Of a stretch of DNA of 64,000 nucleotides, positions 1,499 through 46,642 are shown piece by piece. The stretch spans positions 1 to 64,000 of the forward strand of contig NZ_JABVCF010000009.1 of the NCBI RefSeq assembly GCF_014595955.1. Direction: 5' to 3'. Position numbers and translations under genes: made by a program. The notes beneath the pieces are model-generated. The model searched no databases, was not told where the DNA came from, and was given only the letters and a program-made list of their open reading frames with translations. Within the stretch, counting starts at the first letter, position 1. Each line of letters begins with the position of its first letter. Origin of the DNA: Pseudaminobacter soli (ex Zhang et al. 2022) (GTDB taxonomy: Bacteria; Pseudomonadota; Alphaproteobacteria; Rhizobiales; Rhizobiaceae).

Positions 1499-1529
1499 TC
1501 CGGGCACCTTCCCGTGGCTATTTCGGCAT

Positions 1530-2765
1530 TCAGCCCGTGACGGCGACGATTCTGTCGGTGTGGAAGCCGTTGAAGCGCGTGCGCATGGACAGGCTGTAGG
1601 CGCCCATCATGCCCACCTCGATCCAGTCGCCTTCCCGCACGTCCTCCGGCAGGTGGAAGGGTGCGCCAAGCACGTCGTTGGAATCGCAGGTCGGCCCGTA
1701 GACCTTGAACGGGACCAGCCGGCTGGAGGGCGACCCCGACTTGCGGATCACCCGCGTCGGGCGGCGCTCCTTCGGGTGTCCGAGTTCCTGCAGGGTGCCG
1801 AACACGCCGTCGTTCAGGAACACCGAGTCATGCCGTCTCACCACGACCTGGAGGACGGCGGTGCCGGCGGTCGCGACGAGGCTGCGCCCGGGCTCGCAGA
1901 GCAGGATGCAGCCGGAAGGAAGATCCAGCTTCCTCCGCCCCAGCACGATGCGCGAGAAATAGTGCTCGATCGCTTTCGGGTTGTCGCCCGGGTACGGGGC
2001 CGGGAAGCCGCCTCCGACATTGAGGACATGCAGCGGAACGCGCGCCTTGCGCGAGACGCTTCCGACCAGGTTGATCGCGTTCTCGAAGGCCGAGGGAGAC
2101 AGGCACTGCGATCCCACATGGAAAGAGATGCCCGCCCTGACGCCGGCGGCCTCCACCTTCTGCAGCATACGGACGGCATCGACGGGAGCGGCGCCGAACT
2201 TGGTCGACAGCGCGTAGCGCGCATCGGTGGGCTGGGTCGCCAGGCGCACGGCGATGATCAGGTCGCTGTCGCGCTCGGCTTCGTCGAGGATCTTGTCCAC
2301 CTCCGCGTCGCAGTCGACCGTGTAGAAGCGAATCTGATGGTCCTTGCTGGCCTGGCGGATCGCTGGGCGGGTTTTTGCGGGGTTGTTGAAATATTGCCCT
2401 GCCCTGCCGCCGAACATGTTGTGGATCAGCTTTATCTCGTCCAGCGAGGCAACATCGAAGTCGGTGATGCCGTCATCGAACAGAGTCTGCAGAACGGCAG
2501 GGTGCGGATTGCACTTCACCGCATAGAGCACGCGCCCCGGAAAAGTCCGAAAGCGGCGGGCCGCTGTCCGGAGTTTGTTCGGGTGGATGCAGAAGACCGG
2601 CTCCGATGGCTCGAGGTCCCGGACGACGGCATCCACGCTGGAGAAACTCTCCAGGTCCCTACCCTTCTGCCGGGCCCGGTCGATGGCCGGAAGTGCCTCC
2701 TTCACCCGATCCAGGAGTTGCGCGGGCGTAATTGGGCCCGCAGCCGCCAAAGCGCTGTTGATCAC
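1530..2765 (-). CDS. Fold-III PLP decarboxylase, ornithine/lysine type
   Basis: A 411-residue member of the Orn/DAP/Arg decarboxylase group 2. The PLP lysine is in YAVKCN (about residue 83), followed by HVGSQC, the phosphate-binding GGGFP, EPGR, and near the C-terminus GPTCDSNDV, which supplies the catalytic Cys and Asp of ornithine decarboxylases. It should decarboxylate ornithine or lysine to putrescine or cadaverine in the cytoplasm. The TCDS sequence differs slightly from the usual TCDG, so another basic amino acid is possible. GTG start at 2765 with GGGGAG 8 bases upstream. It lies 28 bases after the GGDEF/EAL gene, suggesting one operon. Confidence 0.88.
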   Translation of the reverse strand: MINSALAAAGPITPAQLLDRVKEALPAIDRARQKGRDLESFSSVDAVVRDLEPSEPVFCIHPNKLRTAARRFRTFPGRVLYAVKCNPHPAVLQTLFDDGITDFDVASLDEIKLIHNMFGGRAGQYFNNPAKTRPAIRQASKDHQIRFYTVDCDAEVDKILDEAERDSDLIIAVRLATQPTDARYALSTKFGAAPVDAVRMLQKVEAAGVRAGISFHVGSQCLSPSAFENAINLVGSVSRKARVPLHVLNVGGGFPAPYPGDNPKAIEHYFSRIVLGRRKLDLPSGCILLCEPGRSLVATAGTAVLQVVVRRHDSVFLNDGVFGTLQELGHPKERRPTRVIRKSGSPSSRLVPFKVYGPTCDSNDVLGAPFHLPEDVREGDWIEVGMMGAYSLSMRTRFNGFHTDRIVAVTG

Positions 2766-2793
2766 GACAAATCTCCCCGTTTTGATTGTGTTG

Positions 2794-5406
2794 TTATGCT
2801 GCGTCGGTCTTCAGGGACTTCAGGACGGTGAATCCCTGCCAGTTCCCAAGGAACGCGGTCATTTCAAGCGCGGGAACCGGACGTCCGAAGAAGTAGCCCT
2901 GCACCTGCTTGCACCCTTCCCCGAGAAGCAGCATTGCCTGCTCCATCGTCTCCACGCCCTCTGCCGTAGTGGTCATGCTGAGGCTCTCGCTCAGGCCGAT
3001 CACCGAGCGCACGATGGCCAGCGACTTGACCTTGTCCTCGAGCGTGGTGACGAACGACTTGTCGATCTTGATCTTGTCGAAGGGGAAGGAATTCAGATAG
3101 CCGAGTGATGAATAGCCGGTACCGAAGTCGTCCATCGCGATATGGACCCCGATGCCCTTCAGCGCGGACAGGATATCAAGTGCCGCCTCGGTGTCGTTGA
3201 TCAGCACGCTTTCGGTGATCTCGAGTTCCAGGCGGCCAGGCTCCAGTCCTGTATCCTCCAGAACCTGCTTCACCGTATCCACCAGTTCGCGGTGGCGGAA
3301 CTGCACCGGCGACAAGTTCACGGCGACCCGCAGCCCCGGCCAGGACAATGCCTGCTGGCATGCAGTCCGCAGCACCCACTCGCCGATCGAGATGATCATG
3401 CCCGTCTCTTCGGCAAGGGGGATGAACTCGCCCGGCGATACCAGGCCGCGGCTAGGATGACGCCAGCGCAGCAGCGCCTCCACCGCGGACACCTTCTGAG
3501 CTTCCAGGTCGATCAGAGGCTGATAATGGAGTTCCAGTTCGTCCTTCAGCAGCGCCTGCCGAAGATCGTATTCCAGCGCCTTCCGTGCCTGGAGCTCCAG
3601 GTCCATCTGCGGCTCGAAGAAGCGGACGTTCCCGCGACCGCCCTGCTTGGCGCGGTAAAGCGCGATGTCTGCATTCTTCAGCAGTTTGTCCGGGTCGTCC
3701 GCATGGTCGGGGAAAGCCACGCCGATGCTGACGCCGACGTGGAGCTCGTGCCCCTCCACCTGGAAGGGCTGCTTCACGATCTCGATGATCCGGCGGCTGA
3801 GCGCTCCCGCGTCCTGAGGCTGGTTTGCGCTCGACTGAATGATGGCGAACTCGTCGCCTCCCAGTCGGGCGACCGTGTCGCCGGACTGAAGGCAGGTTTG
3901 CAGCCGAGCTGAGAACTGCCTCAGCAGAACGTCGCCCGCGCCATGACCAAGCGTGTCGTTCACTTCCTTGAAGTGATCGAGATCCAGGCAAAGAATGGCG
4001 AGGTCCGAATGACGGCGCCGATTGTCGCTCAGCGCATAGATCAGCCGCTCGCGGAACAGAAGCCGGTTCGGCAACTCGGTCAGCGCATCGTGGAGCGCCA
4101 GATGATTTGCACGGGCATGGGCCTCGACTTCTTCGGTGATGTCGGTGGCGGTACCCCTGAACCCGGACAACTGCCCCTTGCTGCTTCCGATCGGACGCCC
4201 GGCGAGCCGGCAAATCCTCATGCGGCCCTGCGCATCCTTGTAGCTGCAGCGGACATGCCGGAAGGCGACGTGGTCGTGGGCACTCGCGTGAAGGCGTTCC
4301 CATCCCTCGGCGTCGGTGTCCTTCATGAAGAACTGGTCGAGTTGCTTGCCCAGAATGCTCGCCGCCGAGATGCCGGTGACCTCGGAAAACCGGGTCGAAA
4401 GATAGACCAGCCGCATCTCGCCGTCACATTCCCAGATCCAGTCCGAGGAAGCCTCGGCCACATCGCGGAACCGGGCCTCGCTCTCTTCGAGCGTCTGGGC
4501 ATAGGTTTCCACGGTCCTGGCGGACTCTTCGAGCTCCTCCGTGGAGCGGCGGACCTTTCGGATCACCTGGTGAGCAAAGAGGCCGAGCAACACCATGGCG
4601 GCAGCCAACGGCGGCAACAGCCATTTCAGGAACTGGTAGCCCGGAGTGGCTGGAGTCCAGACGATGTAGGACAAGGCCTTCCCCGACGGGTCGACCAGCG
4701 GCAGCGTGGCGCCGTCAGCCTGCTCCTCCTGTTCAACCACCTTGAGCGAATCCAGAAGGTAGTCGCTGCTGATGCTCTCCACGAACGTCTGGTCGAGGGC
4801 CTTGGCGAAGACCAGGCTGGACCGGTTCTTAGGCGGTATCGTCGAGGCATCGACCGAAGGCGGCAGGATCGCCGTGGCAGCAACAAGCAGCAGTTGATCC
4901 TTCGAGCGCAGGAAGCCGACCGCGGGCTCGCCCGTCGAGCCCGACTCAACCAGGCTGTCGAGCCCCCGCGGAATGATCGAGAAGGCATCGGCCGTCTGGG
5001 GCACTCCATCAACGACTGCGTAGACCGTCTTGCCGTCCGGTCTCAGGACGAAGGCGAGATCGTATCCCAGCCCCTCATAGATATTGGCGCCGACATTGCC
5101 GTTGGTGGAAGCCCAGCCGAAATCCAAGGTCTCGTGCAGGTTCTTGAAAACGTCTTCCCAAACCGCGTAATCCTGAAGATTACGCGCGATCTCGCGTTTC
5201 TTCACGGAAAGGGCAGTTTCGGCGAGCGCCGTGGAGGATTCGACCTCCAGCCTGTTCTGTCCATCCGCGCTGATGACGGCGAATCCTAGAACGAGCAGAA
5301 TGGCCAGGATGACCATCCCCGCCATTGGCACCACAACGCGACGTGTAAACTTCTCGCCTGAAAAAGAAGCGGCTTTGAGATCCGCAGCTTCCATGCTCGC
5401 CCCCAC
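2794..5406 (-). CDS. CHASE4-PAS-GGDEF-EAL c-di-GMP signalling protein
   Basis: An 870-residue membrane sensor. Order: membrane segment (about 25-47), periplasmic CHASE4 domain (about 55-240), second membrane segment (about 265-285), PAS domain (about 310-430), GGDEF domain with intact RLGGDEF, and an EAL domain with EALLRW, the EITES glutamate, DDFGTGYSSL, KIDKSFV and AEGVE. Both catalytic centres look complete. The inhibitory I-site before GGDEF reads QSGD instead of RxxD, so product inhibition of the cyclase may be lost. The EAL domain has every catalytic residue I could check, so net phosphodiesterase activity is plausible. First gene of the run with the decarboxylase and DMT transporter. 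Confidence 0.93.
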   Translation of the reverse strand: MGASMEAADLKAASFSGEKFTRRVVVPMAGMVILAILLVLGFAVISADGQNRLEVESSTALAETALSVKKREIARNLQDYAVWEDVFKNLHETLDFGWASTNGNVGANIYEGLGYDLAFVLRPDGKTVYAVVDGVPQTADAFSIIPRGLDSLVESGSTGEPAVGFLRSKDQLLLVAATAILPPSVDASTIPPKNRSSLVFAKALDQTFVESISSDYLLDSLKVVEQEEQADGATLPLVDPSGKALSYIVWTPATPGYQFLKWLLPPLAAAMVLLGLFAHQVIRKVRRSTEELEESARTVETYAQTLEESEARFRDVAEASSDWIWECDGEMRLVYLSTRFSEVTGISAASILGKQLDQFFMKDTDAEGWERLHASAHDHVAFRHVRCSYKDAQGRMRICRLAGRPIGSSKGQLSGFRGTATDITEEVEAHARANHLALHDALTELPNRLLFRERLIYALSDNRRRHSDLAILCLDLDHFKEVNDTLGHGAGDVLLRQFSARLQTCLQSGDTVARLGGDEFAIIQSSANQPQDAGALSRRIIEIVKQPFQVEGHELHVGVSIGVAFPDHADDPDKLLKNADIALYRAKQGGRGNVRFFEPQMDLELQARKALEYDLRQALLKDELELHYQPLIDLEAQKVSAVEALLRWRHPSRGLVSPGEFIPLAEETGMIISIGEWVLRTACQQALSWPGLRVAVNLSPVQFRHRELVDTVKQVLEDTGLEPGRLELEITESVLINDTEAALDILSALKGIGVHIAMDDFGTGYSSLGYLNSFPFDKIKIDKSFVTTLEDKVKSLAIVRSVIGLSESLSMTTTAEGVETMEQAMLLLGEGCKQVQGYFFGRPVPALEMTAFLGNWQGFTVLKSLKTDAA

Positions 5407-5556
5407 GATAAATGTGGCGACACGATGCGTGGATCATGATGATTTAAGTCTTACCGCCATCCAGCGGAGTTATTTTACAGTTACAATCCGGTGAATCGCT
5501 GGACGCCGTTTTGCGTAATTCGCTCATTTCTCTCAAGTCATACGTATAAGACACCC
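5407..5556. promoter_or_regulatory. A/T-richer upstream region of the GGDEF/EAL gene with dyad
   Basis: This 150-base gap is richer in A/T than the surrounding genes and must carry the promoter of the minus-strand GGDEF/EAL gene. It contains a perfect inverted repeat TCCAGCG (5460-5466) / CGCTGGA (5497-5503) with a 30-base spacer that is itself A/T rich. Whether it is an operator is unknown. Confidence 0.35.
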
Positions 5557-6525
5557 TTATGCTTTCTCCCGTCTGCCGGTCAGCGGCCGCTCACCCAGCG
5601 CCCGTGCAATCGCGTTGTGTACGGAAGTTGCCGCGATCGCTGCGTGGCCGGTAGCCACCGAGATCTGATCGAGTTCGTCCACGACGTCGCCGATAGAGTA
5701 GAGCCCAGGAACGTTAGTCTGTCGATGATCGTCCGTCTTCAGGCAGCCCGCTTTATTCGCGGCCGCTCCAAGCGTGACCGCCAGGTCGGATCGGGGCGCG
5801 GCGCCCATGGCAAGATAGATCGCGTCGAAGTCCCTGCGATCGCCGTTCTGGAAATGCAGCGACACGCCCTCCCCGTCCTCGGATATTCGCGTCACTTGAT
5901 CCATCACTCTATCGAAGCCCGAACTCGCAAGGGAATGGCTGTCTTCCGAGGTTAGCGGGCGGTCCGGCACGATCGAGATCTGATTTGTAAAAGTCCGCAG
6001 GAAGACCGCTTCCCTGAGAGCGCGCGACGGCTCGCCCCAAACGGCCAATCGATTCCCGATGAAGTCATGCCCGTCGCAGATCGGACAGAGCCTGACCTTG
6101 TCGCGCATGATCAGTTGCTCCGAGAAGCCGGGCACATCAGGCAGCCTGTCCTTGAGCCCCGTGGCAAGGATGACATGCCTCGCTAAGATCATTCCCTCCG
6201 ACGTGAGGGCCTCGAATCCCGATGATGTCCGATGCAGCGCCCTTACGTGCCCTTTCACGAAGACGGCGCCGTGCTTGGATGCCTGGCGCCTTATCCGGTC
6301 GCACAGGTCGGGACCCGAGATGCCCTCCGGAAAGCCTGGATAGTTCCTTATGGTGCCGATCCATCGTGTGCGGCTTTCCTGCGCATCGATGACCGTCACC
6401 GAGCGCCGGAACCGGGCGAGGTAGATCGCCGCGGTTGCACCGGCCGGCCCGCCGCCCGCGATGAGGCAGTCGAGGACACGTCCGTCAGGTGCTTTTTCCG
6501 CTCCAGTTCCGGCGTGCGGCCCCAC
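5557..6525 (-). CDS. Thioredoxin-reductase-like FAD flavoprotein
   Basis: A two-dinucleotide-domain flavoprotein of about 322 residues. It has the FAD-binding GGGPAGATAA near the N-terminus, the redox pair CPICDG in the position of the thioredoxin reductase disulfide, ATG before the second domain, and a C-terminal SIGDVVD motif that contacts FAD. In the NADPH domain the usual GxGxxA is replaced by WGEPSRAL, and the HRRxxxR NADPH contact is not seen, so the electron donor may not be NADPH. Start uncertain: GTG at 6525 with GGGAG 10 bases upstream is preferred; the frame stays open to a TTG at 6600. It lies 115 bases downstream of the cytochrome cluster on the same strand. Confidence 0.8.
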   Translation of the reverse strand: MGPHAGTGAEKAPDGRVLDCLIAGGGPAGATAAIYLARFRRSVTVIDAQESRTRWIGTIRNYPGFPEGISGPDLCDRIRRQASKHGAVFVKGHVRALHRTSSGFEALTSEGMILARHVILATGLKDRLPDVPGFSEQLIMRDKVRLCPICDGHDFIGNRLAVWGEPSRALREAVFLRTFTNQISIVPDRPLTSEDSHSLASSGFDRVMDQVTRISEDGEGVSLHFQNGDRRDFDAIYLAMGAAPRSDLAVTLGAAANKAGCLKTDDHRQTNVPGLYSIGDVVDELDQISVATGHAAIAATSVHNAIARALGERPLTGRREKA

Positions 6526-6640
6526 GACTTTATGTCTCCCGTTCGGCCAAAATTCGGAACCGAACACCTTTGCGGGCGAGGCGGTTCCGGCGCGCGACAA
6601 TTGGCGTGGCGCAGTTCAGCCGTTCTCATTGACCGAAATG

Positions 6641-7240
6641 TCAACGCAGGGCGTAGAGGTAGGCGGCGATGTCGCGTGCATCCTGCTCGGAAATGCCGGT
6701 GGACGGCATGGCGGTGTGTGGATCGAGCTGCCGCGAGAAACGGATCCACCGGACCATGTTTTGCGACGTGTTCGGCACGCTCCCGCCGAGGTAGAGCCGC
6801 TCGTTGAGCGTGGAATCGAGCTTCGGCCCGACCAGCCCCTGGGCGCCTGGCACGCCCTGGATGGTGTGGCAACCGGCGCAGCCATTCGCCAGCATGATGG
6901 GTATGGCGCGCTCCCCTACCCCGCCGATCGCAATGTCGGCCTCCTGCTGCACGTGGCGAAGATGATCGAACCACCAGACGATGGCGACGATCACGACCGC
7001 CAGGGCGAGCATGGCGGCAGCAAGGCCAAGCGGATAGCGCATCTCAGGCTGAAGCGGCGGAGCCGGAGGCGACATCAATTCGACCCGCTTGCTGGCGCGC
7101 TCCTCGAGCCCGACCGGCTTCTGGGCTGGATGGATGGAATGCCGGCGCCAAAATCCGACGCCTCCCGCGAGCCCGGCAATGCCGGCCGCCCCGAGCCCGG
7201 CCACAGTCCAGAGAAGAGGTCGGTTGATCGGTGCACGCAT
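6641..7240 (-). CDS. Membrane-anchored c-type cytochrome
   Basis: A 199-residue protein with hydrophobic segments at about 9-30 and 70-90 and a C-terminal cytochrome c domain holding one haem site CAGCH (from residue 121). A downstream AMPSTG supplies a likely axial Met. It should sit on the periplasmic face and carry electrons. It is the last gene of the XoxF/oxidase run, 9 bases after the small membrane protein gene, so its partner is probably the caa3 oxidase or the methanol dehydrogenase chain. Confidence 0.85.
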   Translation of the reverse strand: MRAPINRPLLWTVAGLGAAGIAGLAGGVGFWRRHSIHPAQKPVGLEERASKRVELMSPPAPPLQPEMRYPLGLAAAMLALAVVIVAIVWWFDHLRHVQQEADIAIGGVGERAIPIMLANGCAGCHTIQGVPGAQGLVGPKLDSTLNERLYLGGSVPNTSQNMVRWIRFSRQLDPHTAMPSTGISEQDARDIAAYLYALR

Positions 7241-7249
7241 GTTCGGCGC

Positions 7250-7591
7250 TCAGCGGATGCACTCGTCGAGGATCAATGAGGCGGCGCCCTGGATGACGAT
7301 GACCAGCGCGAAAAGCGCCGCCACCATCATCCCGAGCATCGCGACGAAGCGCTCGGTCGAAAGCTCGCGCTCGGGCTTGAACGATGCGCCCCCGCGTTGC
7401 CAAGCCCGCCATGACAGCAATCCTCCCGCCACCGCGACGGCGAGGAAGCAGAGCGCCAGGATTGGAATGATCGGGATGCGATTTACGCACTGCCACTGAA
7501 CCAGCGAATAGTTGGCCTGGGTCGAGGCGGCCCATGCCACCGGACCGGCAAGCAGCCCTGCCCAGGAGGTGCCAACCTGTACCGCGCGCAT
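7250..7591 (-). CDS. Small three-segment membrane protein of oxidase cluster
   Basis: A 113-residue protein with about three hydrophobic helices and a conserved-looking WxC segment (VQWQCVN) after the first. I do not recognise a named family. It starts one base after the oxidase subunit III stop region and precedes the cytochrome c gene, so it is almost certainly translated from the same transcript. It could be a small structural (subunit IV-like) or assembly part of the caa3-type oxidase; that is inference from position. Confidence 0.65.
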   Translation of the reverse strand: MRAVQVGTSWAGLLAGPVAWAASTQANYSLVQWQCVNRIPIIPILALCFLAVAVAGGLLSWRAWQRGGASFKPERELSTERFVAMLGMMVAALFALVIVIQGAASLILDECIR

Positions 7592-7592
7592 C

Positions 7593-8198
7593 TCAGCTAA
7601 ACCTCGGCAGCCAGTAGATGAGGAAGTAGATCGGAAGCCAGGTGATCACGACGAAATCCCAGTAGAAGACGTTGTCGTCGACGTCGCCGAAGCGCCGGCC
7701 GCTGTAGCCGTGCCGCGTGAACATGAGTGCGGTGAGCACGATCGTGTCGCCCACATCGGTGATGAGGTGGGTTGTGTGCAAACCCAGCAGCACCCACAGC
7801 ATCGAGCCGTAGGCGTTTGAGTCCCACCAGATATTTAAGGCCGGGAACTCGAACCAACGAACGATGAGCGGCAGGATGCCGAAGATCGACATGACCACCA
7901 GCCCGATGCGCACCTTGGGCATGTCGCAGTCGTTGGCCCAGCGCCGCAGCATGTGGTTGGGAACGGCACTTGCGAGCAGCAGCAGCGTGACGATGGTGCC
8001 CGGCCAGTGGTTCGGAACCGGCGCGCTGAGCGGGAATGCGGGATTGATGTAGGCCAGATAGAGATAGGCGCCGGCCGCGAGCACGAAGCCGGTGCCCTCG
8101 AGCGCCATGAAGCCGAGCGTTCCCCACCAGGTCGGGCTGCGCGATCCCATCCCATAAGTGGGCAGGTCGGAGAGATCGATTGCTTGGCGCTGCCTCAT
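7593..8198 (-). CDS. ctaE: Cytochrome c oxidase subunit III
   Basis: A 201-residue membrane protein with about five helices typical of haem-copper oxidase subunit III: the GTLGFMALEGTGF helix near the start, a central LGLHTTHLITD segment carrying conserved His residues, and a C-terminal FYWDFVVITWLPIY segment. It is shorter than the seven-helix form of mitochondrial-type oxidases, as in caa3 enzymes. The ATG at 8198 shares a base with the subunit I stop codon (TAATG), indicating translational coupling. The reading frame stays open far upstream through subunit I, but that part is a shadow. Confidence 0.9.
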   Translation of the reverse strand: MRQRQAIDLSDLPTYGMGSRSPTWWGTLGFMALEGTGFVLAAGAYLYLAYINPAFPLSAPVPNHWPGTIVTLLLLASAVPNHMLRRWANDCDMPKVRIGLVVMSIFGILPLIVRWFEFPALNIWWDSNAYGSMLWVLLGLHTTHLITDVGDTIVLTALMFTRHGYSGRRFGDVDDNVFYWDFVVITWLPIYFLIYWLPRFS

Positions 8199-10117
8199 TA
8201 CTCGTCCTCCGGCTCGCCCTTCGGCCAGAACCAGCCGATCAGTGCGATGGCAATGGGAGGCGCTCCCCAGACGACTGCCCAAGGTGTGAAGATCGACCAA
8301 AGGAACGTAGCGCCGACCGCTATTGCGGCGAACAGAGGCCAGATCGAGGGCGCAGCCGATTTCTCGCGAATGTCCGGATGCCCCTCCGCCACCGTCGAAA
8401 TCACCAGCTCGCGGGCATCGACCCTTAGGCCGGCGGCGACAGGCAGTTCCGCCCGCGCGGCCCACAACGGCTCGAGGTGTGTGACGACGGGGATGCGCGC
8501 GAAATTGTAGCTCGGCGGCGGCGAGGATGTCGCCCATTCCAACGTGCCGGCGTCCCAGGGATTGTCGCCGGCGGGCTCGCCGCGTCGCGCGCTCCACACG
8601 AGATTGATAGTGAAGAGCACGAAACTGAAGAACAGGACCAGTGCGCCGCCCGTGATGAAGAGGTTGATGTTCCCCCAGCCGAGGTCGACCGGATAGGTAT
8701 AGACCCGTCGCGGCATGCCCCAGAGGCCGAGGATGTGCATGGGGAAGAACGCGGCGTTGAAGCCGATGAAGGCTAGCCAGAAGTGCCAGCGCCCCATGCG
8801 CTCGCTCATCATCCTGCCAGTCAGCTTCGGATACCAGTAGTAGGCGGCGCCCATCAGCGGGAACACCGACCCGCCGATCAGCACGTAGTGGAAATGCGCG
8901 ACGACGAAGTAGGTGTCGTGAACCTGCAGGTCGAGCGGCACCGAGGCTAGCATGACCCCGGTCAGCCCGCCCGCCACGAAGATGAAAAAGAAGCCGAGCA
9001 CGAACAGCAGCGGCGTGCCTATCTTTGGGCGACCGCCCCAGAGAGTTGCCACCCAGCAGAAGATCTGCAGGCCGTTGGGAATGGCGATCAACATGCTGGA
9101 GGCGGTGAAGAAGCTTGCGCCGACCTTGGCAATGCCCGTCGCGAACATGTGGTGGACCCACAGGCCGAAGGACAGGATGCCGACCGCAATCACCGACAGG
9201 ACCAGCGCGAGATAGCCGAAGGCTGGCCGCCGCGCGAAAGTGACGATGATGGCCGACACCATGCCCGTGGCCGGAAGGAAGATGATGTAGACCTCGGGAT
9301 GGCCGAAGAACCAGAACAGGTGCTGGAATAGAAGCGCGTCGCCGCCTTCCGCCGGATTGAAGATCTGGGTGCCGACCAGCCGGTCGAGGATCAGGAAAGT
9401 CGAGGCGATCATCACCGCCGGCATGGCGAACACCACGACGAAGGACGTCACCAGCATCGCCCAGACGTAGAGTGGCATCCGGTTGAGCGACATGCCGGGG
9501 GCGCGCTGCTTGAATATGGTGACGATGGTGGCCACCGCCACCGCAAGGGACGACACCTCCGTATAGGTGATGGTCTGGGCCCAGACATCGGCGCGCTTGC
9601 CGGGCGAGAATTCCGGTCCGGACAGTGGGACATACGCGAACCAGCCGATGTCCGGCCCCATGTCGAGCAGGAACGACACCCACAGGAACAACCCGCCGGA
9701 CAGATAGATCCAGTAGCTGAACGCGTTGAGCCGCGGGAAAGCGATGTTGCGCGTGCCGACCATCAGCGGCACCAGATAGATGCCCGTCGCCTGCACGATC
9801 GGCACGGCGAACAGAAACATCATCGTCATGCCGTGCACGGCGAAGAGCTGGTTGTAGAGATCGGGCCCGATCAGGCCCCTTTCCGGCCCGGAGAGTTGCA
9901 GGCGCATGGTGACCGCATTCAGACCTCCCAGGCACAGGAAGACGAATGCCGTGATCAGGTAGCGTCGTGCGATGACCTTGTGGTCGACCGCCGACAGCGC
10001 ACCAATGATGCCGCGCTTGGTCTCCCAGGTGCTGGTCAGCCAGCGGTGAAGCGAGGCGTCGTCGAGCGACGTGTCGCGAATGCCCTTGCTCTTCGCAGGA
10101 AGATCGGCTGCGCTCAT
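8198..10117 (-). CDS. ctaD: Cytochrome c oxidase subunit I (A-type)
   Basis: The 639-residue catalytic subunit, with about 12-14 membrane helices. The CuB/cross-linked Tyr motif is GHPEVYI, with the glutamate that marks A1-type oxidases. Haem ligands are visible in AVHGMTM and in VHDTYFVVAHFHYV, and WVHHMF supplies the CuB histidine pair. It reduces O2 to water and pumps protons. The C-terminal portion carries an extra membrane hairpin. It overlaps the subunit II gene by 4 bases. Together with the cytochrome-c-fused subunit II it forms a caa3-type oxidase. Confidence 0.96.
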   Translation of the reverse strand: MSAADLPAKSKGIRDTSLDDASLHRWLTSTWETKRGIIGALSAVDHKVIARRYLITAFVFLCLGGLNAVTMRLQLSGPERGLIGPDLYNQLFAVHGMTMMFLFAVPIVQATGIYLVPLMVGTRNIAFPRLNAFSYWIYLSGGLFLWVSFLLDMGPDIGWFAYVPLSGPEFSPGKRADVWAQTITYTEVSSLAVAVATIVTIFKQRAPGMSLNRMPLYVWAMLVTSFVVVFAMPAVMIASTFLILDRLVGTQIFNPAEGGDALLFQHLFWFFGHPEVYIIFLPATGMVSAIIVTFARRPAFGYLALVLSVIAVGILSFGLWVHHMFATGIAKVGASFFTASSMLIAIPNGLQIFCWVATLWGGRPKIGTPLLFVLGFFFIFVAGGLTGVMLASVPLDLQVHDTYFVVAHFHYVLIGGSVFPLMGAAYYWYPKLTGRMMSERMGRWHFWLAFIGFNAAFFPMHILGLWGMPRRVYTYPVDLGWGNINLFITGGALVLFFSFVLFTINLVWSARRGEPAGDNPWDAGTLEWATSSPPPSYNFARIPVVTHLEPLWAARAELPVAAGLRVDARELVISTVAEGHPDIREKSAAPSIWPLFAAIAVGATFLWSIFTPWAVVWGAPPIAIALIGWFWPKGEPEDE

Positions 10118-11130
10118 TTGAGGTGCTCGAGATAGGCAACGACGGCGTTCAGTTCATCGCCGCTGAGATTCATCGTCGGCATGCGCGCGCCGGGCTTGAC
10201 GCTCTGGGGATCGGCGATCCAGGCAGCGAGATTGCCGCGGCTCATATGAAGGGTGCCAGCGGCGATCGTCTGTCGGCCGGCGAGGTGGGTGAGATCGGGC
10301 CCGGTGTTCGCAGCCGCCTTCGTGCCCTGGATCTTGTGGCACATGATGCACGGCCGGTTCATGAACAGGTCGTGGCCGGCGCGCTGCTCGTCGGTCTCGG
10401 GCTGCCGGGCGTTGCTCAACTGGGCATTGTACCATCCGTCGAACGCCTCCCGCGGCTCCGCCACAACCATCAGCGCCATGTGGGCGTGCTGCGCGCCGCA
10501 GAATTCGGCGCATTGGCCGCGATAGACGCCGGGCTTGTCGGCCTTGAGGGTCAGTTCGTTGTCAAAGCCGGGGATGAGATCCTTTTTGCCGTGCAGTGCT
10601 GGCACCCAGAAGGAATGGATGACGTCCGTGCTGCTCAGCACAACCCGAACCGGTTCGCCGGCCGGGATGTGGATCTCGTTCGCCGTCGTCAGAGTGCGCC
10701 TTGGCTGGTCGCTCTCATAGCGCACCTCCCACCACCACTGATGGCCGGTGAGCTTGATGGTGACCGGGTTCTGCCCGCCGATCGCGGCGATGGTGCGGTT
10801 CGAGAAGTAGCTCAGGAGCGAGAGCACGATCATCATCAGGACTGTAGCGGCGACCGCTCCGGTTACGACGCGGGTGGCCTTCCGGTCGCCGGCTTCGTCG
10901 ATGTCCAGGGGCTCGGCTCTATCACCGCGCCGTTTTGACAAGCCCCAGATCAGCACGATCATGACGGCGAGCCAGATGAGCGAGCAAAGGCCCGTGAAGA
11001 ACCAGATCAGCCAGGCCAGTTCGGAGGCCGCAGGCCCTTTGGGATCGAGCGCGGACTGGATCCCGGTGCAGCCGGACAAGGGAATCATGGGCAACAAGGC
11101 CGCGGCCCTATGAAGCCCCGTCGCCTTCAC
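10114..11130 (-). CDS. ctaC: Cytochrome c oxidase subunit II with fused cytochrome c (caa3 type)
   Basis: A 338-residue protein with a lipoprotein-like signal (LSGC), two membrane helices, a cupredoxin domain and a C-terminal cytochrome c. The CuA site is intact: VIHSFWVP and GQCAEFCGAQHAHM. The fused domain has haem site CIMCH and axial Met in GARMP. The fusion defines caa3 oxidases, which accept electrons directly from cytochrome c. GTG start at 11130 overlaps the preceding cytochrome gene by 4 bases (GTGA). Confidence 0.96.
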   Translation of the reverse strand: MKATGLHRAAALLPMIPLSGCTGIQSALDPKGPAASELAWLIWFFTGLCSLIWLAVMIVLIWGLSKRRGDRAEPLDIDEAGDRKATRVVTGAVAATVLMMIVLSLLSYFSNRTIAAIGGQNPVTIKLTGHQWWWEVRYESDQPRRTLTTANEIHIPAGEPVRVVLSSTDVIHSFWVPALHGKKDLIPGFDNELTLKADKPGVYRGQCAEFCGAQHAHMALMVVAEPREAFDGWYNAQLSNARQPETDEQRAGHDLFMNRPCIMCHKIQGTKAAANTGPDLTHLAGRQTIAAGTLHMSRGNLAAWIADPQSVKPGARMPTMNLSGDELNAVVAYLEHLK

Positions 11131-11666
11131 GGCGTGCGCCCCTGCGTGGCCGCATTCGGCATCCGGTTCTCCGCAGGCCGCGCCATCATGTCGTCGTTAC
11201 GGCCCGGAGCGGCCGCCGAAGGGACGTTGCCGCCCATCGACTTCACATAGGCCGCGAGTTCCCACAGTTGGTCGTCCGGTATCAGGCGGCCGAAGGTAGG
11301 CATCCCGTTCGGCCGGCCGTCGCGGATGCTCGCATGGATGCTTTCGATCGAGTTGCCGTAAAGCCACTTCTCATCCATCAGCGCGGGCCCCATGCCGCCC
11401 CCGCCATTGGAATGGCAGCCATTGCAATTGAAGGCACTGAACAGGGTCTTGCCCTGGCTGATGTGATAGGCATTCCCCTCGAATTGAGCTGCCTTGGGAT
11501 TGGAGAACTGCGGCCGGTTGCCTCCGGGCTCGAGCGCAGTGACGGGAACGGCCTGTTGGCTCTCGCCGAGGACAGGCTCTGGTCGGGTTTCGCGTTCCTC
11601 GCGCTGGCAGCCCCCCAACACCGCGAGCGCGAGCCCGATAGCGAGGGAAGCTGGCTTGCGCATCAT
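11127..11666 (-). CDS. xoxG: c-type cytochrome, XoxG-like electron acceptor
   Basis: A 179-residue exported lipoprotein (LGGC lipobox about residue 20) with a single cytochrome c domain: haem site CNGCH, and axial Met in GMPTFG. In lanthanide methanol dehydrogenase operons the cytochrome next to xoxF takes electrons from the PQQ enzyme; here it lies between the xoxJ-like gene and ctaC, with 4-base overlaps on both sides, so it could pass electrons straight to the caa3 oxidase. The Pro/Ala/Asn-rich tail of about 40 residues is probably disordered. The xoxG assignment rests on position as well as family. Confidence 0.75.
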   Translation of the reverse strand: MMRKPASLAIGLALAVLGGCQREERETRPEPVLGESQQAVPVTALEPGGNRPQFSNPKAAQFEGNAYHISQGKTLFSAFNCNGCHSNGGGGMGPALMDEKWLYGNSIESIHASIRDGRPNGMPTFGRLIPDDQLWELAAYVKSMGGNVPSAAAPGRNDDMMARPAENRMPNAATQGRTP

Positions 11667-12538
11667 TGCCCCGCCGTGCTCACCGGATCGGTGCGAGGCA
11701 CGTGATAGGCCGCGAGGATCGCGTCGATCTCCGGACGGTGCTTTACCAGCGCCGCTTCGATCTCATCGCGAAAGGCCTCGTCCTTGCGCCGCACGCCCAT
11801 CGAGATGTCATAGGCCATCGGCAGGTTCGCGCCGCCCTCGCTCGCTGGCACCGGCGTGACCCGGAGCCTGGCGCCGTCCTCCGCTGCGAAATATCCGGCG
11901 AGCGGACCCCAGACCAGCGCCACGTCGATTTCGCCGCGCGCCACCGCTTCGACGATGCGCGCCGGCGGATTGGGCATCGCATAGTCGCCGTAGACAGGAT
12001 AGCCCTTGAGGTTGCCGATGATGCCGCGCTGCGCCAGGGCTGCGACCGGAGGCGGGTTGGCGCCATCATCGCCGATCAGTTGAACGCCGATCTTCATGGT
12101 GCGCAGCCGCGGATCGTCGAAAGAGGCCACCTCGGGATCCCTAGCCCGGGTCACGAACGCATAGGTGGAGCGGTAATACGGCGCCGTGGTCAGCAGCATC
12201 TCCATGCCGGCCGGCGCTCCTGCAACGAGGTCGCACAGCCCCGCCTTCAGCGTATTGCGGAAGAAACCGCGCCGCTGCGCCCACCAGACGTAAGACACGC
12301 GGGCCTCGAGTTCGCGGGCGAGGACCTCGACGATGCGGTTCTCGAATCCCTCGCCGCGTTGGTTGGAGAACGGCAGGTTGTTCGGGTCGGCGCAAACGCG
12401 CAGCTCTCGTTCGGCTGCATTCGCTGAGGAGCCGCAACAAAGCAGGCCGCCAAGCACCGCTGCGAGCACGAACTTCCGGCCACGCAACCGCGTTGATCCG
12501 AGAGCCTTGCCGGCCATGTCAGGGCAACCGGAAGACAT
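11663..12538 (-). CDS. xoxJ: Quinoprotein-dehydrogenase-associated binding protein (XoxJ/MoxJ family)
   Basis: A 291-residue periplasmic binding-protein fold with a signal peptide ending near ANAAE. It starts its mature part with LRVCADPNNLPFSN and GFENRIVEVLA, the hallmark of the family found beside PQQ dehydrogenases. XoxJ is thought to help activate XoxF or its cytochrome. The ATG at 12538 has a strong GGGGGAG 5 bases upstream and lies inside the end of xoxF (20-base overlap); a second ATG at 12517 has no such site. Confidence 0.9.
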   Translation of the reverse strand: MSSGCPDMAGKALGSTRLRGRKFVLAAVLGGLLCCGSSANAAERELRVCADPNNLPFSNQRGEGFENRIVEVLARELEARVSYVWWAQRRGFFRNTLKAGLCDLVAGAPAGMEMLLTTAPYYRSTYAFVTRARDPEVASFDDPRLRTMKIGVQLIGDDGANPPPVAALAQRGIIGNLKGYPVYGDYAMPNPPARIVEAVARGEIDVALVWGPLAGYFAAEDGARLRVTPVPASEGGANLPMAYDISMGVRRKDEAFRDEIEAALVKHRPEIDAILAAYHVPRTDPVSTAGQ

Positions 12539-14474
12539 AGAGGCTCCCCCCAGGCGTGGTGACGTCCTTCAAGTCCTTCATGGCGTTGACGAAGCCCAGC
12601 GCCGCCGTCGCGTCGCGCGGGTCGAGATCGCCGGAAACGACCGCGCCTGCCCAGCCGCCGACCCCGGCCAAGACAGCCACATACTGATGCCCGTCAGGCC
12701 CGCGATAGGTGATCGGCTGGCCGATGATGCCGGACGAGGTCTTGAACTGCCACAGAAGGTCGCCCGTCTTGGCGCTCACCGCCTTGAACCAGCCTTCCAT
12801 GGTTCCGTAGAAGACCACGTCTCCTGCCGTCACCAGCGCGCCGCTCCAGACCGGAAAGTTCTCCTTCAGCTTCCAGGCCGGCTTCTGGTTGGCGAGATCC
12901 CAGGCCGTGAACTCGCCCCTGTGGCCGCCCGGGCCGGGGATCATCCTGACGTTCATGCCGACATACGGCGTGCCGGCGATGTAGTTCACCTCGGTACCTT
13001 CCTCGTCCATGCACAGGTTGTTGTGCGGGATGTAGAGAAGGCCGGTTCGCGGGGAGAAAGCCGATGGCTGCCAGTCCTTCACGCCGGCGGCGGTCGGACA
13101 GATATCGCGCACGACCTTGCCCGTCGTCGGCCGCTTCTCGGGGTTGTCGATGAGCCGCCCGGTCTTCAGGTCGACACCCTTGCTCGAGTTCACCGCGCCG
13201 AATGGCTTCGCCGAAAGGACCTCGCCGGTCGTGCGATCGAGTATGTAGACGTAGCCGTTGCGGTCGGGGCGCACGAGCACCTTGCGGGGCTTGCCCTCCC
13301 AGTTCATGTCGAGAAGGATCTGCTCGTTGATCCCGTCGTAGTCGTGCTGGTCGTGCGGCGTCCATTGATAGTACCAGTGCGCCGCACCGGTGTCCGGATT
13401 GCGCGCGAAGATGCCGGCCGTCCACTTGTTGTCGCCGGGCCTGAGATCAGGATTCCATGGTCCGGGATTGCCCGTACCATGATAGATGAGGTCGAGTTCG
13501 GGATCGTATCCGATCCAGCCCCAGACATTGCCACCGCCGATCTTCCAGGCGTCAGGCGGCCAACTGCTCACGCCGAGATCCTTGCCCTTGTCCATGTCAT
13601 AGAAGGGCTTGAACTCTGGCCCGATCAGGACCTCCGCGTCCGGCCCCGTGTTGTAGGCGGTCCAGACGACATGCCCGTCATTGGCGTCGAGCGCCTTGAT
13701 CCAGCCGCGAACGCCCATCTCGCCGCCGGAATTGCCGACCAGCACCTTGTCCTTCACCACAAGCGGCGCCATCGTCACGGTCTCGCCGATGTTGATGTTG
13801 CCGACCTTGGTGTTCCAGATCGCCTGGCCGGTGTTGGCGTCGACCGCGATCGTGTGGCCATCGAGCGTGTTGAAGAAGATGCGGCCGTTGGAAAAGGCCG
13901 CGCCCCGGTTCACCACGTCGCAGCAGGCGACGCCCTGGGCGGCCGGCTCGGGATTGGGCCTGTAGAACCATTTGAGCGGCGCGCTGGGTTTGGTCAGATC
14001 GAGCGCATAGAGAATGTTGGGGTACGGGGTCACGATGTACATCGTGCCGCCGATCACGAGCGGCGCGGCCTCGTGCCCCTTGTTTATGCCGGTCGAGAAG
14101 GTGAAGGCGACCTGCAGCTTGCCGACATCGCCCTCGTTGATCTCCGAAAGCTCGCTGTAGCGCGTCGAGGCGTAGTTCTTGGCCGGCATGGTCCACTGGC
14201 CGTCGTCGGGGGGAGCGGCCGCGGCTGGCGGGGTGATCGCTGGCCCTTGCTGCGCGGCGGCCGGAGACATCATCGAGACGGCGACTAGACCTGCAACGGC
14301 GACTACCTGACCGGGCCGGCTCGTTCTGCCCTTCACATCTGCTACATGGGAAGCCATCGCGGAGCGGGTGGGCGCGAGCTTCTGAGCGTTTCGCGTGCGG
14401 TCAGCCGAGCCTCGCGCGACGGGGGCAGGCAACGCCGTCAGCCCCAATGCACCGATTACACGCAAGATCGGCAC
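12519..14474 (-). CDS. xoxF: Lanthanide-type PQQ methanol/alcohol dehydrogenase (XoxF)
   Basis: An eight-bladed propeller quinoprotein that oxidises methanol or other short alcohols in the periplasm. Adjacent cysteines in GVACCDVVNRG form the PQQ-contacting disulfide. The active site reads PHDQHDYDG: the Asp two places after the catalytic Asp is the extra lanthanide ligand of XoxF-type enzymes (Ala in calcium-dependent MxaF). The signal peptide ends near SPAAAQQ. The start is unsure: GTG at 14474 has GGGAGG 4 bases upstream and is used here; ATG at 14357 gives the neatest signal peptide; ATG at 14507 is also open. First gene of the methanol-oxidation/oxidase run. No pqq biosynthesis genes are in the window. 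Confidence 0.93.
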   Translation of the reverse strand: MPILRVIGALGLTALPAPVARGSADRTRNAQKLAPTRSAMASHVADVKGRTSRPGQVVAVAGLVAVSMMSPAAAQQGPAITPPAAAAPPDDGQWTMPAKNYASTRYSELSEINEGDVGKLQVAFTFSTGINKGHEAAPLVIGGTMYIVTPYPNILYALDLTKPSAPLKWFYRPNPEPAAQGVACCDVVNRGAAFSNGRIFFNTLDGHTIAVDANTGQAIWNTKVGNINIGETVTMAPLVVKDKVLVGNSGGEMGVRGWIKALDANDGHVVWTAYNTGPDAEVLIGPEFKPFYDMDKGKDLGVSSWPPDAWKIGGGNVWGWIGYDPELDLIYHGTGNPGPWNPDLRPGDNKWTAGIFARNPDTGAAHWYYQWTPHDQHDYDGINEQILLDMNWEGKPRKVLVRPDRNGYVYILDRTTGEVLSAKPFGAVNSSKGVDLKTGRLIDNPEKRPTTGKVVRDICPTAAGVKDWQPSAFSPRTGLLYIPHNNLCMDEEGTEVNYIAGTPYVGMNVRMIPGPGGHRGEFTAWDLANQKPAWKLKENFPVWSGALVTAGDVVFYGTMEGWFKAVSAKTGDLLWQFKTSSGIIGQPITYRGPDGHQYVAVLAGVGGWAGAVVSGDLDPRDATAALGFVNAMKDLKDVTTPGGSLYVFRLP

Positions 14475-14656
14475 GTGACCTCCCTCACATACCGGTGAGC
14501 CGGCCATGGCCGCCCCTGGTCGCGATCCTCAAGCGTGCGTGGGACGCACCACAGTATGCGCAGCCCCTGCGGGCCGCGTTCCTAAACTACAAACCTCCAA
14601 TTTGTTCCATGCAGCGCCGAGATGTCAGCGATCACGAAGGCCCGACTACGCCGCGG

Positions 14657-17600
14657 TCATCGCATCACGGATTTCAGGACCTCAGCCAGTCCTTCGATCG
14701 TATAGGGCTTCATCAGATGGCCTGCCCCCGCCGGCAGGTTTTTAGCCCGCGAAAGGTCGTGGCCGGAGGCGAAGATCACACGCAGATCGGGCAGGCGATG
14801 AAGGGCCTCCGCGGCCAAGTCGCCGCCAGATGTTCCCGGCAGGCTGAAATCCGTCAAGAGAACGTCGACCCGATTCTCGCCAAGAAGCCGCAACGCCTCC
14901 TCCGCATCGCCGGCCTCCAGCACCGCGTGGCCCAGTTCGTCCAACATGTCTGCCGTCGCGAACCGGATCAGCGCCTCGTCCTCCACCAGCAGGACCCGCA
15001 ACGGTCGGGCGCCTTCGGTGCTCGCGGCCTCAGAGTGGATGGTTTGCGCGGGCTGCGTACTACTCTCTTCCACGTGCCGCGCCTCCGCGGGCTGGGCATC
15101 TGTCCGCTGCTGCTGGTTGCCCAGGACTTGGCGGATCTTGCGGGCGAGTTCCTCGCGCGAATAGGGCTTGCTGAGAAGCTCGACGCCCTCGTCCAGACGG
15201 CCATGGTGAATGATGGCGTTCTGGGTGTAGCCGGATGTGAACAGCACGGCGATGTTCGGAAGCCTCTCCCTCGCCTTGCGGGCAAGTTCCGGGCTGCGGA
15301 GCGTGCCGGGCATGACCACGTCGGTGAACAATACGTCGATCGGTACATCGCTCTCGAGTATGATCAGGGCGCTATCCGCGTCGTTCGCCTGGAGCACTCG
15401 GTAGCCAAGGTCGGAAAGCATATCCACTGCGGTAGCGCGTACGCCCTCGTCGTCCTCCACGACCAGCACGGTCTCGGTACCGCCGACAGCCGTGCCGCCC
15501 TTGAACTCGACCGCGACATCTTCCTGTTGCCGCGCCCTGGGCAGATACATCCGCACCGTCGTGCCTTCACCCGGCTCGCTGTAAATATTCACATGGCCGC
15601 CGGACTGCTTGACGAAGCCGTAGACCATGCTGAGGCCAAGCCCGGTACCCTGCCCTTCGGGCTTGGTGGTGAAGAACGGCTCGGTGACCCGGTCCAGGAT
15701 TTCCGCCGGGATGCCGCATCCGGTATCGGTCACCGCCAGCATCACATACTGCCCCGGTCTCACATCCGCATGGCCGGCTGCGTATGCGTCGTCAAGGTAA
15801 CTGTTGCCGGCTTCGATTGTCAGCTTGCCATGCCCGTCCATCGCGTCGCGCGCATTGATCGCGAGGTTGAGCAACGCGTTTTCCATCTGGACGGTATCGA
15901 CGAAGGTATTCCAAAGGCCGCCCGATATAACGGTGTCGACCTCGACGGCTTCACCGATGGAACGCCGCAGCATGTCGTCCATGCCGCGGACGAGACGCCC
16001 GAGATTGACGACCTTGGGCGCGAGCGGCTGACGCCGACCGAAGGCGAGCAGTTGCGAAGCGAGCTTCGAGCCGCGCGACACGCCGAGCAGCGCGTTGCGC
16101 ACGCGTTCCTCGGCCCGCCCATTTCCCGCTATCTCCTTGGACAATAGCTGGAGATTTCCGCCGATCACCTGCAGCAGGTTGTTGAAGTCGTGCGCGACAC
16201 CGCCGGTGAGCTTGCCGACCGCCTCCATCTTGTGCGCCTGGCGCAGTTGCATCTCGGCCTGCTCGCGCTCGGCTATCGCTTCCGCCACCCGATTCTCGAG
16301 CAGTTCGTTCAGCCGACGCTGCGCCTCTTCCAACTGCTTCCGGACGGTGATCTCGCGGGCAATCTTCGAGGCCCCGATGACCTTTCCGGTTTTGTCCGAG
16401 AGGGGCGAAACGGTGATCGAGACATCAACCTTTCGACCATCCTTGGTAAGGCGGATAGTATCGAAATGCTCGACGCGCTCGCCCTTGCGGAGCCTTCCGA
16501 TGATGTCCTCTTCCTCTCGATGGAGTTCGGGCGGGATCAGCCTCAGGATCGACTGCCCGATCATCTCCTCCGGCTCGTAACCGAATAGCTTGGCGGCGCC
16601 TGAATTCCAGGACGTGATGCGGCCCTCCAGGTTCTTGCTGATGATTGCATCTTCGGATGAGGAGACAATCGCAGCAAGACGCGCGGCCTGAAGCTCCGCT
16701 TCCTTGAGATCCGTTATGTCGACGACCGAGCCGATGTAGCCACGGAAGTTGCCATCCTCGCCAAGCCAGGGAGTGGCGGATTCAAGGGCCCAGCCATAAG
16801 AACCATCCCGTCTTCGCAGGCGGTATTCCAGCGAGAACGGCTCCCCGCGTTCGTTGGCGGCGAGGAAGATCTCTTCCAACCGGCCACGATCGTCCGGGTG
16901 GGTCGTCTCGAGCCAGCCACGGCCAAGCGCCGTCTCCGGTGAATGGCCGGTGAACTCGTACCAGGAGCGGCTGATGAACGTGCAGAGGCCACCGGGATCG
17001 GTCGTCCAGATCATCACCGGCGAGTTGTCCGCCATGTTGCGGAACCGCTCCTCGCTTTCGCGCAGGGCCTCGTTCATCTGACGACGCATCCGCGCCATGT
17101 CGAGCGCGCCATTGACCCGGGCGATGAGCTCGCGTGCGGAGAAGGGTTTGACCAGATAGTCGTCCGCACCGGCCGCGATGCCTTCTACGCTGGCTTGCTC
17201 GCCGGCTCGCGCTGACAGGGCGATGACCGGTACGTCCCTGAGCGTAAGTTCGTCGCGAATGGCGCGTATGAGCCCGAAGCCGTCGAGCCTCGGCATCATG
17301 ATGTCGGTGAGGATGAGATCGGGGCGGCGGGCTCGCGCCGCATCAAGCGCGGCTTGCCCGTCCGGAACGGCTTCGACCTGATGCTGAGTCCCGAGCAGAC
17401 GCTGGACATAGTCGCGCATGTCCGGATTGTCGTCCGCAACAAGGATCCGGAACCGCTTCTCGCCACTGGATACCGGGATGTCCGAAGAGGAGCCGACGAT
17501 CGTCCTTTCAGTCGCATTGTCCTCGGCATTCGCATTCGGAAGCCAGTGCAAGGCCTCTTCGACATAGGCGAAGGCGCGCGCCGCCGACGGCGTCAGGCTT

Positions 17601-19378
17601 GTGGCCTCGCGAACGCGGACAGCCGGCAGATGCTCCTTGCCAAAGGGAATGGTGATATGGAAGGTCGTGCCATGTCCCACTTCACTTTCGACGTTGATCG
17701 AGCCGCCATGCAGCTTGACCAGTTCCTGCACCAGGGCAAGGCCGATCCCGCTCCCCTCGAAAGAACGCCCCTTCGCGCCGTCCACCCGATGGAAGCGTTC
17801 AAACAGGCGCGGGAGTTCCGACTTCGGAATGCCGGTGCCGGTATCACGGACCCTCAGGACCGCCGCGTCGGGGTCAGCCCTAAGGCTGACACTGATCCCG
17901 CCATCGAAGGTGAACTTGAACGCGTTCGATACGAGATTGAGGAGGATTTTTTCCCACATCTCGTGGTCGACATAGACCGGCTCAGGCAGCGCCGGGCAGT
18001 CCACTGTGAGCTCCAGGCCAGCCTTCTCCGTGGCGGAGCGGAAATTGCTGGCGAGTTCGGCGGTGAAGGCGGAAAGGTCGGTGGGCTCATAGCTTGCCTG
18101 GGCGCGGTCGGCCTCGAGACGCGAGAAGTCCAGGAGGGAGTTGACCAGCTTGAGCAGACGCCGGCCATTACGATGCGCCGTCCGGATCAGCTCCCGGTCG
18201 GAGTTCGGGATGGCGCCCTCCGGCTTGGAAAGGACGTCCTCCATGGGACCCATCATGAGGGTCAGAGGCGTGCGGAACTCATGGCTCACATTGGAGAAGA
18301 AGACGGTCTTGGCGCGATCGATCTCGGCCAGCGCCTCGGCGCGCCTGCGTTCCTCCTCATAGGCCTGAGCATTGGCGATCGCCGCGCCGATCTGCCCGGC
18401 CGCCAAGGCGAGGAAGCTCCGATAGTCCTCGTCGAAGATACGGAAGGGATTGAGTCCGACCACGAGAACGCCGGCGCGACCAGTCTCTCCCGCGGGCAGG
18501 ATCGGAATGAGCGCCGCCTGGTTCGGAGGCTTGGACCAGGGGCCGGTTGGAAGGCTGCCTCCCGTCTTGGCGCCAAGCTCGGTGACCAAGCGAGGTTCCT
18601 GATCCGAGAGCACCTCGGCGAACGGCCAGATCGACCCGTGTTCGAAGGAAACTGTCCGGGGAAATTCGGCGTGGCCTGGTTCGATGCCGGCGGTAGCCGC
18701 AACCGACACGCTTCGACCCTCCGGGTCTGCGACGTAGATCACCGCGAAGGGAATATCGTGTCTGTTTACCGCAAGCGCTGCGGCGCTCCGCTCGCAGGCC
18801 TCCCGCCAGGCGCGCGCGTCCGATGCGGCCGTTGCCAGTTCCCGCAGCAGCGCGAGCTGGCGGTCGCCGATCACGCGATGGGTGTCGTCCGTGTTGACGC
18901 AGATGATCCCGCCAGGTGTTCCGTCATCGTTCGGGATCGGCGTATAGGAGAAGGTATAGTAGGTCTCCTCGGGATAGCCGTTGCGCTCCATGATCAGGAG
19001 CTGTTCTTCCACGTAGGTGCCCTCGTGGCCGCCAAGAGCCGTGTCCAGCATCGGGCCGATGTCGTCCCAGATCTCGCTCCAGACCTCGGAGGTGGGACGC
19101 CCGAGCGCCCAGGGGTGCTTGCCGCCGATGATCGACTTGTACGGGTCGTTGTAGAAGTAGGTCAGGTCCTTGCCCCAGCCGATCCAGATCGGCTGGCGGG
19201 ACAGCAGCATGATACGCACGGCGGTCTTGAGGCTCTGTGGCCATGTCTGCGGGTCGCCCAGCGGCGTCGAGCCCCAGTCATGGGCACGGATCAGCGCGCC
19301 CATTTCGCCGCCACCGGAAAGAAATCCCAGGGCCGATAGTTCCAAGCCGGGACGAGGCTGTTCTGAAGCGTGGTTCAA
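14657..19378 (-). CDS. Large hybrid histidine kinase with two kinase cores and three receivers
   Basis: A cytoplasmic-looking protein of about 1573 residues. Approximate order: PAS-like sensor (20-170), GAF (180-350), HisKA with [10 protein letters not shown], HATPase ([14 protein letters not shown]), receiver 1 ([13 protein letters not shown]), two PAS domains (about 800-1040), a second HisKA with [11 protein letters not shown], second HATPase ([14 protein letters not shown]), receiver 2 (LFTDVVMPG) and receiver 3 (LLTDFSLPG). There is no DNA-binding output. The TTG at 19378 is the preferred start, with GAAGGA 6-7 bases upstream; the 50 residues before it are Arg/Cys-rich and unlike a domain. 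It lies upstream of xoxF on the same strand. Confidence 0.88.
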
Positions 19379-46621: not shown

Positions 46622-46642
46622 GACCGATCAATCAGTTCCGCC

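Follow-up and report, generated by a model that had tools for sequence, protein, structure and literature searches.

An XoxF3-clade methanol dehydrogenase and a caa3-type oxidase with altered proton-route residues in one gene run of Pseudaminobacter soli

The first 64,000 nucleotides of contig NZ_JABVCF010000009.1 of Pseudaminobacter soli (ex Zhang et al. 2022), hereafter the window, contain a minus-strand gene run that joins xoxF, encoding a lanthanide-type methanol dehydrogenase, to the genes of a caa3-type cytochrome oxidase. We consider it probable that this run is an XoxF3-caa3 operon encoding a chain from methanol to O2 that does not involve the bc1 complex, most likely with an oxidase that takes up protons by a rebuilt D-type route and pumps with a changed, probably lower yield.

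Eight intact frames (14507-6641) extend from xoxF through a membrane cytochrome c, with successive overlaps of 20, 4, 4, 4 and 1 bases followed by gaps of 1 and 9 bases. An earlier, sequence-only reading of the window had described this tight run, with overlaps of 1-20 bases and gaps no larger than 9, and had named its genes from the letters alone; our family searches agree with those names. It had also placed a complete terminal oxidase in the xoxF operon, and caa3-type ctaC, ctaD and ctaE are indeed present with their active-site ligands kept. The CuB histidines, the tyrosine Y288 and the CuA site, features of an A-family haem-copper oxidase, are all found. The CuA ligand pattern of CtaC, which we take to be GQCAEFCGAQHAHM, aligns to 2YEV_B, and the best PDB match of CtaC is the Thermus thermophilus caa3 oxidase 2YEV.

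Gene order in relatives had been suggested as a check. We ranked loci from a scan of named genomes by likeness to the window XoxF and kept the best 80 of 250, a set biased to close relatives, chiefly Mesorhizobium. The window's order with ctaG added (xoxF-xoxJ-xoxG-ctaC-ctaD-ctaE-small membrane protein-ctaG-cytochrome) recurs at 44 of the 80 loci, and thus the run is more than a chance arrangement. A promoter or terminator dividing xoxG from ctaC had been named as the observation that would speak against a single unit; a simple promoter and terminator scan of window positions 1-18000 lists no such site between these genes, and we rejected a split at this point. The two minus-strand sites that it lists within the run are both inside ctaD, and the site totals are not above those of shuffled sequence (2 vs 3.2 and 8 vs 10.4).

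The dehydrogenase has as its best PDB match the methanol dehydrogenase 4MAE (XoxF of strain SolV), whose clade is presumably XoxF2. The extra lanthanide aspartate is present in the motif HDQHDYDG, the HDYDG of which aligns with 4MAE; we take this aspartate to sit two residues past the catalytic one (D299-x-D301). It is found in 105 of 111 aligned rows, one other row having alanine and five leaving the motif unmatched. In a tree of 59 rows the window XoxF lies apart from the PDB references 4MAE, 6OC5, 7O6Z and 4TQO and groups with Methylobacterium oxalidis, Acidobacteriota, Gemmatimonadota and Rokubacteria. The M. oxalidis enzyme is named XoxF3 (PMC8561711; published work is cited here and below from excerpts), and on its sequence the window dehydrogenase is assigned to the XoxF3 clade. 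The nearest relatives of the operon are in Chelativorans and Mesorhizobium. The xoxF start codon is uncertain, as the N-termini of the seven orthologues compared resemble one another only beyond about residue 90 of the window frame and later ATGs are present.

In the chain that we envisage, XoxF, assisted by XoxJ, would act in the periplasm, using pyrroloquinoline quinone (PQQ) and a lanthanide to oxidise methanol or another small alcohol. Electrons would then pass to XoxG, which is probably membrane-tethered, and perhaps also to the membrane cytochrome c, and from there to CtaC with its haem c and CuA. CtaC would hand them to the haem/CuB centre of CtaD, where O2 is reduced, and the bc1 complex would not take part. 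This electron path is what we infer from the gene families present.

Proton-route residues of CtaD

In the usual description of bacterial A-type oxidases, protons enter through K and D pathways, with about 2 of 8 protons assigned to K and 6 to D in the standard view (PMC6934443), and equivalent channel residues are tabulated in PMC12901375. Residues K362, N121, D132, N139, 198, N207, E286, Y288 and S365 are given here in Rhodobacter numbering, from which the window's own numbers differ. The window CtaD keeps the catalytic and CuB histidines, E286 (window E275) and Y288. The K-channel lysine K362 is replaced by Q351 and the D-channel residues D132 and N121 by N124 and I113, and a new glutamate, E187, stands at position 198. 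The alignments near the K362 and D132 sites are ungapped, and a structural model of CtaD (mean predicted local distance difference test score, pLDDT, 72) places E187 in a predicted helix at 177-203 and Q351 in one at 329-360.

We compared 135 CtaD sequences, 75 of which have xoxF in the same stretch. K362 is absent from 72 of these 75: 65 have Q, and seven, in which E286 is W, carry A, G or S. The 65 linked CtaDs (23 representatives at >20% distance) were selected for an xoxF match of >250 bits in the stretch and for Q362 and E286. The invariance of these two residues therefore follows from the selection, of which the remaining counts are free. All 65 have the helix-IV glutamate at 198, C in place of S365, Y288 and both CuB histidines. 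N121 is kept in none of them, D132 in a single one (N in 59, T in 2, S in 2, E in 1) and N207 in four. By comparison, K362, D132 and N121 are present in all of the 40 next-ranked CtaDs of a 200-genome sample, which were taken by score order and not randomly; four of these have A at 286, and none has xoxF in its stretch. A canonical set of 40 selected by K362 and E286, made up of 36 of the next-ranked sequences and four from the window's own genome, has E198 in 0/40 and N207 in 40/40.

Having lost K362 and the entry residues of the D route, an A-type enzyme of this kind must take its protons otherwise. An invariant acid stands beside the D-route serines and, with E286, suggests that a D-type route has been rebuilt, in which the helix-IV residue E187 would feed E275 and so supply the protons. 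The pumping yield would then be changed and is probably lower; both route and yield are inferred from the residue changes. The same counts could also be read as those of an oxidase that does not pump at all, with some other proton path, acting as an electron sink that sustains methanol or formaldehyde turnover without full energy conservation. The lack of K362 in the great majority of CtaDs beside xoxF, the near-complete loss of D132 and N121 in the window type and the standard division of protons between the K and D routes would all suit such an enzyme. However, the acid gained in all 65 sequences and the retention of E286 in the Q362 type suggest that a cytoplasmic route is maintained, and pumping can survive unusual residues in the D route. 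We therefore regard a non-pumping oxidase as unlikely, although it deserves serious attention beside the rebuilt D-type route.

In a midpoint-rooted CtaD tree all K-lacking rows fall on one side of a 100/99 branch, which suggests that the loss of K is older than the link to XoxF; loss of D132 appears mostly confined to the linked clade. We considered whether K-lacking oxidases are confined to XoxF loci and rejected this, as 16 of the 135 CtaDs have neither K nor xoxF in the stretch and four K-lacking CtaDs without xoxF fall inside the linked clade of the tree. A second type, without K362 and E286, also stands beside XoxF3, so that a departure from canonical proton uptake may be a general trait of XoxF3 partners. 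That the XoxF3-linked lineage in general has no K pathway, a rebuilt D pathway with a helix-IV glutamate relay, a bc1-free chain and a lower yield is a generalisation that we offer tentatively, and with clearly less confidence than the reading of the window operon itself.

The second type has HPWVY for HPEVY and was seen at L088, L099, L103, L121, L122, L125 and L126. An oxidase with the same E286W change is encoded in the window's own genome (L128, 9307-11253), with no xoxF in the stretch. The same genome encodes two long CtaDs of 824 and 836 residues (L129, 7448-9922; L130, 8411-10921) with Q362 and the helix-IV glutamate, their lengths being the size of COX1-COX3 fusions; a small membrane protein after the L130 CtaD resembles the 113-residue protein of the window by eye.

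The C-terminus of the window CtaD resembles subunit IV (Cyt_c_ox_IV, E=2.2e-4; its 21.7 bits fall short of the gathering score, 26.9), and two extra helices are predicted at 593-630. In the PDB comparison this CtaD scores higher with 6ADQ, which we take to be a mycobacterial chain, and with similar chains than with Thermus caa3. None of the 11 CtaD-query alignments listed, a minority of all matches and one of them obtained with another long CtaD as query, gives a solved structure with Q at 362. We found no description of the loss of K362, N121 and D132 together with E198 in the open-access literature searched; subscription papers on oxidase classification may hold one.

Linkage of XoxF3 and the oxidase across genomes

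At 73 of the 80 related loci the cluster includes a ctaC gene on the strand of xoxF; among the other seven, three stretches end within 1.6 kb downstream and one has 4.1 kb. The linkage was found in five phyla, with the same gene order in Acidobacteriota, Gemmatimonadota, Rokubacteria and Pseudomonadota. The oxidase is also present at L069, from Methylobacterium oxalidis NBRC 107715; for M. oxalidis DSM 24028, presumably the same type strain, XoxF3 is described as the sole XoxF (PMC8561711). The control was a set of 19 loci with other methanol dehydrogenases (stretches of 14-20 kb), one of which, L242, is divergent and sits on the tree's XoxF3 side; no oxidase gene was found beside the dehydrogenase at any of the 19. 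XoxF and CtaD distances correlate with r=0.89 over 65 pairs and with r=0.44 over the 23 divergent representatives (0 of 2000 permutations as high), shared ancestry inflating both figures.

Several observations weigh against the proposed operon function or limit its reach. L098 is the one linked CtaD with D132 kept, and N139 is kept in 59 of the 65; the D route is therefore altered, not erased. Three K362-keeping CtaDs share a stretch with xoxF (L045, L064 and L087); they are 36-38% identical to the window's and form a separate long-branch group, that of L087 being encoded on the xoxF strand, some 1.5 kb upstream of that gene, and the other two on the opposite strand. Eleven long CtaDs, selected for Q362, an acidic residue (D or E) at 132 and the lack of xoxF (a COX3 fusion being judged from length alone), share Q362 and E198, and so neither change is specific to XoxF. 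L080, L112 and L114 have no ctaC despite 10 kb downstream (L080 also has 10 kb upstream, L112 and L114 less than 1 kb), and there is no oxidase in 20 kb at L123 and at the divergent L127, which are XoxF3 or XoxF3-like. Four CtaDs from relatives of the same taxonomic family (L169-L172) are nested in the XoxF-linked clade with no xoxF within about 5-7.5 kb on either side. The oxidase at L170 adjoins a molybdopterin oxidoreductase and a multi-haem cytochrome c, and thus it may serve another donor; sequences similar to these neighbours occur at L171 and L172, and at L169 the cytochrome alone was seen. The window's own genome has seven other CtaD-like genes and one weak match. Finally, in published work XoxF3 is at a very low level in Methylocella silvestris (PMC9291206), and in M. 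tundrae, which has an xoxFGJ cluster, XoxF3 is raised under anoxia with N2O (PMC11102522).

Some of these points would also fit another arrangement, in which the run is one transcript and the operon merely co-expresses its genes, the oxidase being a general one fed by XoxG and by the common cytochrome pool, bc1 included. The other CtaD-like genes of the genome and the four clade members without xoxF favour such an oxidase, and each carrier resembles an ordinary mono-haem cytochrome c. Against this stand the absence of any oxidase beside the control dehydrogenases and an XoxF3 linkage that extends over five phyla. Furthermore, XoxG seems lipid-anchored: LGGC near its N-terminus resembles, we presume, a lipobox, and a crude lipobox rule is satisfied in 54 of 64 linked orthologues. 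We thus judge a general oxidase improbable, to about the same degree as a non-pumping one, and prefer an XoxF3-caa3 chain that by-passes bc1. It seems very improbable that XoxF3 and the oxidase are paired only because they were transferred together, on a mobile respiratory island with independently working parts: the cluster is scattered over distant phyla and one copy is on a plasmid (L061, by its record title), but four phyla share one gene order, and at seven loci XoxF3 has a different K-lacking oxidase, the E286W type, as its neighbour.

Other genes of the run and its surroundings

Table 1. Genes of the run in the window, in order of transcription, and the gap at the usual place of ctaG
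Feature	Coordinates	Strand	Assignment and spacing
xoxF	12519..14507	-	TIGR03075; lanthanide-type methanol dehydrogenase, assigned to XoxF3 clade
xoxJ-like periplasmic binding protein	11663..12538	-	TIGR03871; overlap of 20 with xoxF
xoxG-like mono-haem cytochrome c	11127..11666	-	cytochrome c family; overlap of 4 with xoxJ
ctaC fused to cytochrome c (caa3 type)	10114..11130	-	TIGR02866 (CoxB) and cytochrome c; overlap of 4
ctaD with predicted C-terminal two-helix extension	8198..10117	-	TIGR02891 (CtaD); overlap of 4
ctaE, short cytochrome oxidase subunit III, 201 residues	7593..8198	-	COX3; overlap of 1
113-residue membrane protein	7250..7591	-	no family above cut-off; gap of 1
9-base gap where related operons hold ctaG	7241..7249	-	ctaG absent here
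membrane-anchored mono-haem cytochrome c	6641..7240	-	cytochrome c family; gap of 9

CtaE covers only positions 131-255 of the 258 in the COX3 profile. The 113-residue protein has three long predicted helices and two cysteines that are invariant in all 20 aligned sequences, and its model (pLDDT 84.8) has no PDB match at E<=0.001. The gene ctaG (Caa3_CtaG) was detected in 65 of the 66 related clusters that run past ctaE, the exception being L090. It is absent from the window run, where 9 bases stand at its usual place. A ctaG homologue of 48% identity lies on another contig (L136, G000:C1:595005-595784) and may replace the missing gene.

A thioredoxin-reductase-like gene (5557-6600) lies 40 bases downstream of the run, and a gene for a hybrid histidine kinase of 1623 residues with three receiver domains (14657-19528, same strand) ends about 150 bases upstream of xoxF. 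Both were considered as parts of the operon and rejected: at E<=1e-20 the first has no matches in the 80 loci, and the second has three, of 31-32% identity. Elsewhere in the window, 45539-63872 looks flagellar by sequence.

The contig that holds the window is 296 kb long, in a genome of 6.1 Mb. This genome encodes a second methanol dehydrogenase, in the 6OC5 (AM1, XoxF5) group (L135, G000:C23:188500-208400), whose neighbours resemble pqqC, pqqD, pqqE, the RuBisCO small subunit and CbbX by sequence, and three matches to Fae are above cut-off. Because of the XoxF5-group enzyme, these pqq- and RuBisCO-like neighbours and the Fae matches, the host is probably a methylotroph.

Comparison with known systems

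The sequence-only reading had seen in the run a self-contained alcohol-to-oxygen chain. All redox carriers from methanol to O2 are indeed encoded, but the novelty that it implied does not stand, as the pairing is already in print (PMC4013037 and PMC10875860). COX operon type a-II pairs an oxidase with a PQQ dehydrogenase (Degli Esposti 2014, PMC4013037), and the window run, with ctaC-ctaD-ctaE and a PQQ dehydrogenase, is probably of this published type. Other marks of the type are COX4-like helices fused to the C-terminus of COX1 and a COX3 of five helices. In Acidobacteria and Gemmatimonadetes, XoxF3 clusters with CoxI-III, CtaG and CytC (Voutsinos 2024, PMC10875860). XoxF3 was the most abundant XoxF type in one sampled set of weathered granite and soil (340 of 411 sequences, PMC10875860), and in Methylosinus trichosporium the protein is strongly raised by cerium (log2 7.66, PMC12482762).

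The residue pattern of the oxidase would matter more than the operon, which extends a published pattern. If A-type oxidases that occur naturally in several phyla do without K362 and D132, they would reveal which routes serve O2 reduction and which serve pumping. The pattern would also determine how much energy methanol oxidation by XoxF3 yields.

The window run differs from COX operon type a-II as published in its lack of ctaG, and the main text of that report has no word beginning with 'proton' and leaves channel residues untreated (PMC4013037). Compared with the XoxF3 clusters of PMC10875860, it is alphaproteobacterial (Mesorhizobium-like) and again has no ctaG in the run. The window XoxF shares its lanthanide aspartate with the XoxF2 of Methylacidiphilum SolV (4MAE) but belongs to a different clade of the tree. 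Similarly, the fusion of CtaC to cytochrome c is the one found in Thermus thermophilus caa3 (2YEV), whereas the window CtaD is without the K362 and D132 of a canonical subunit I.

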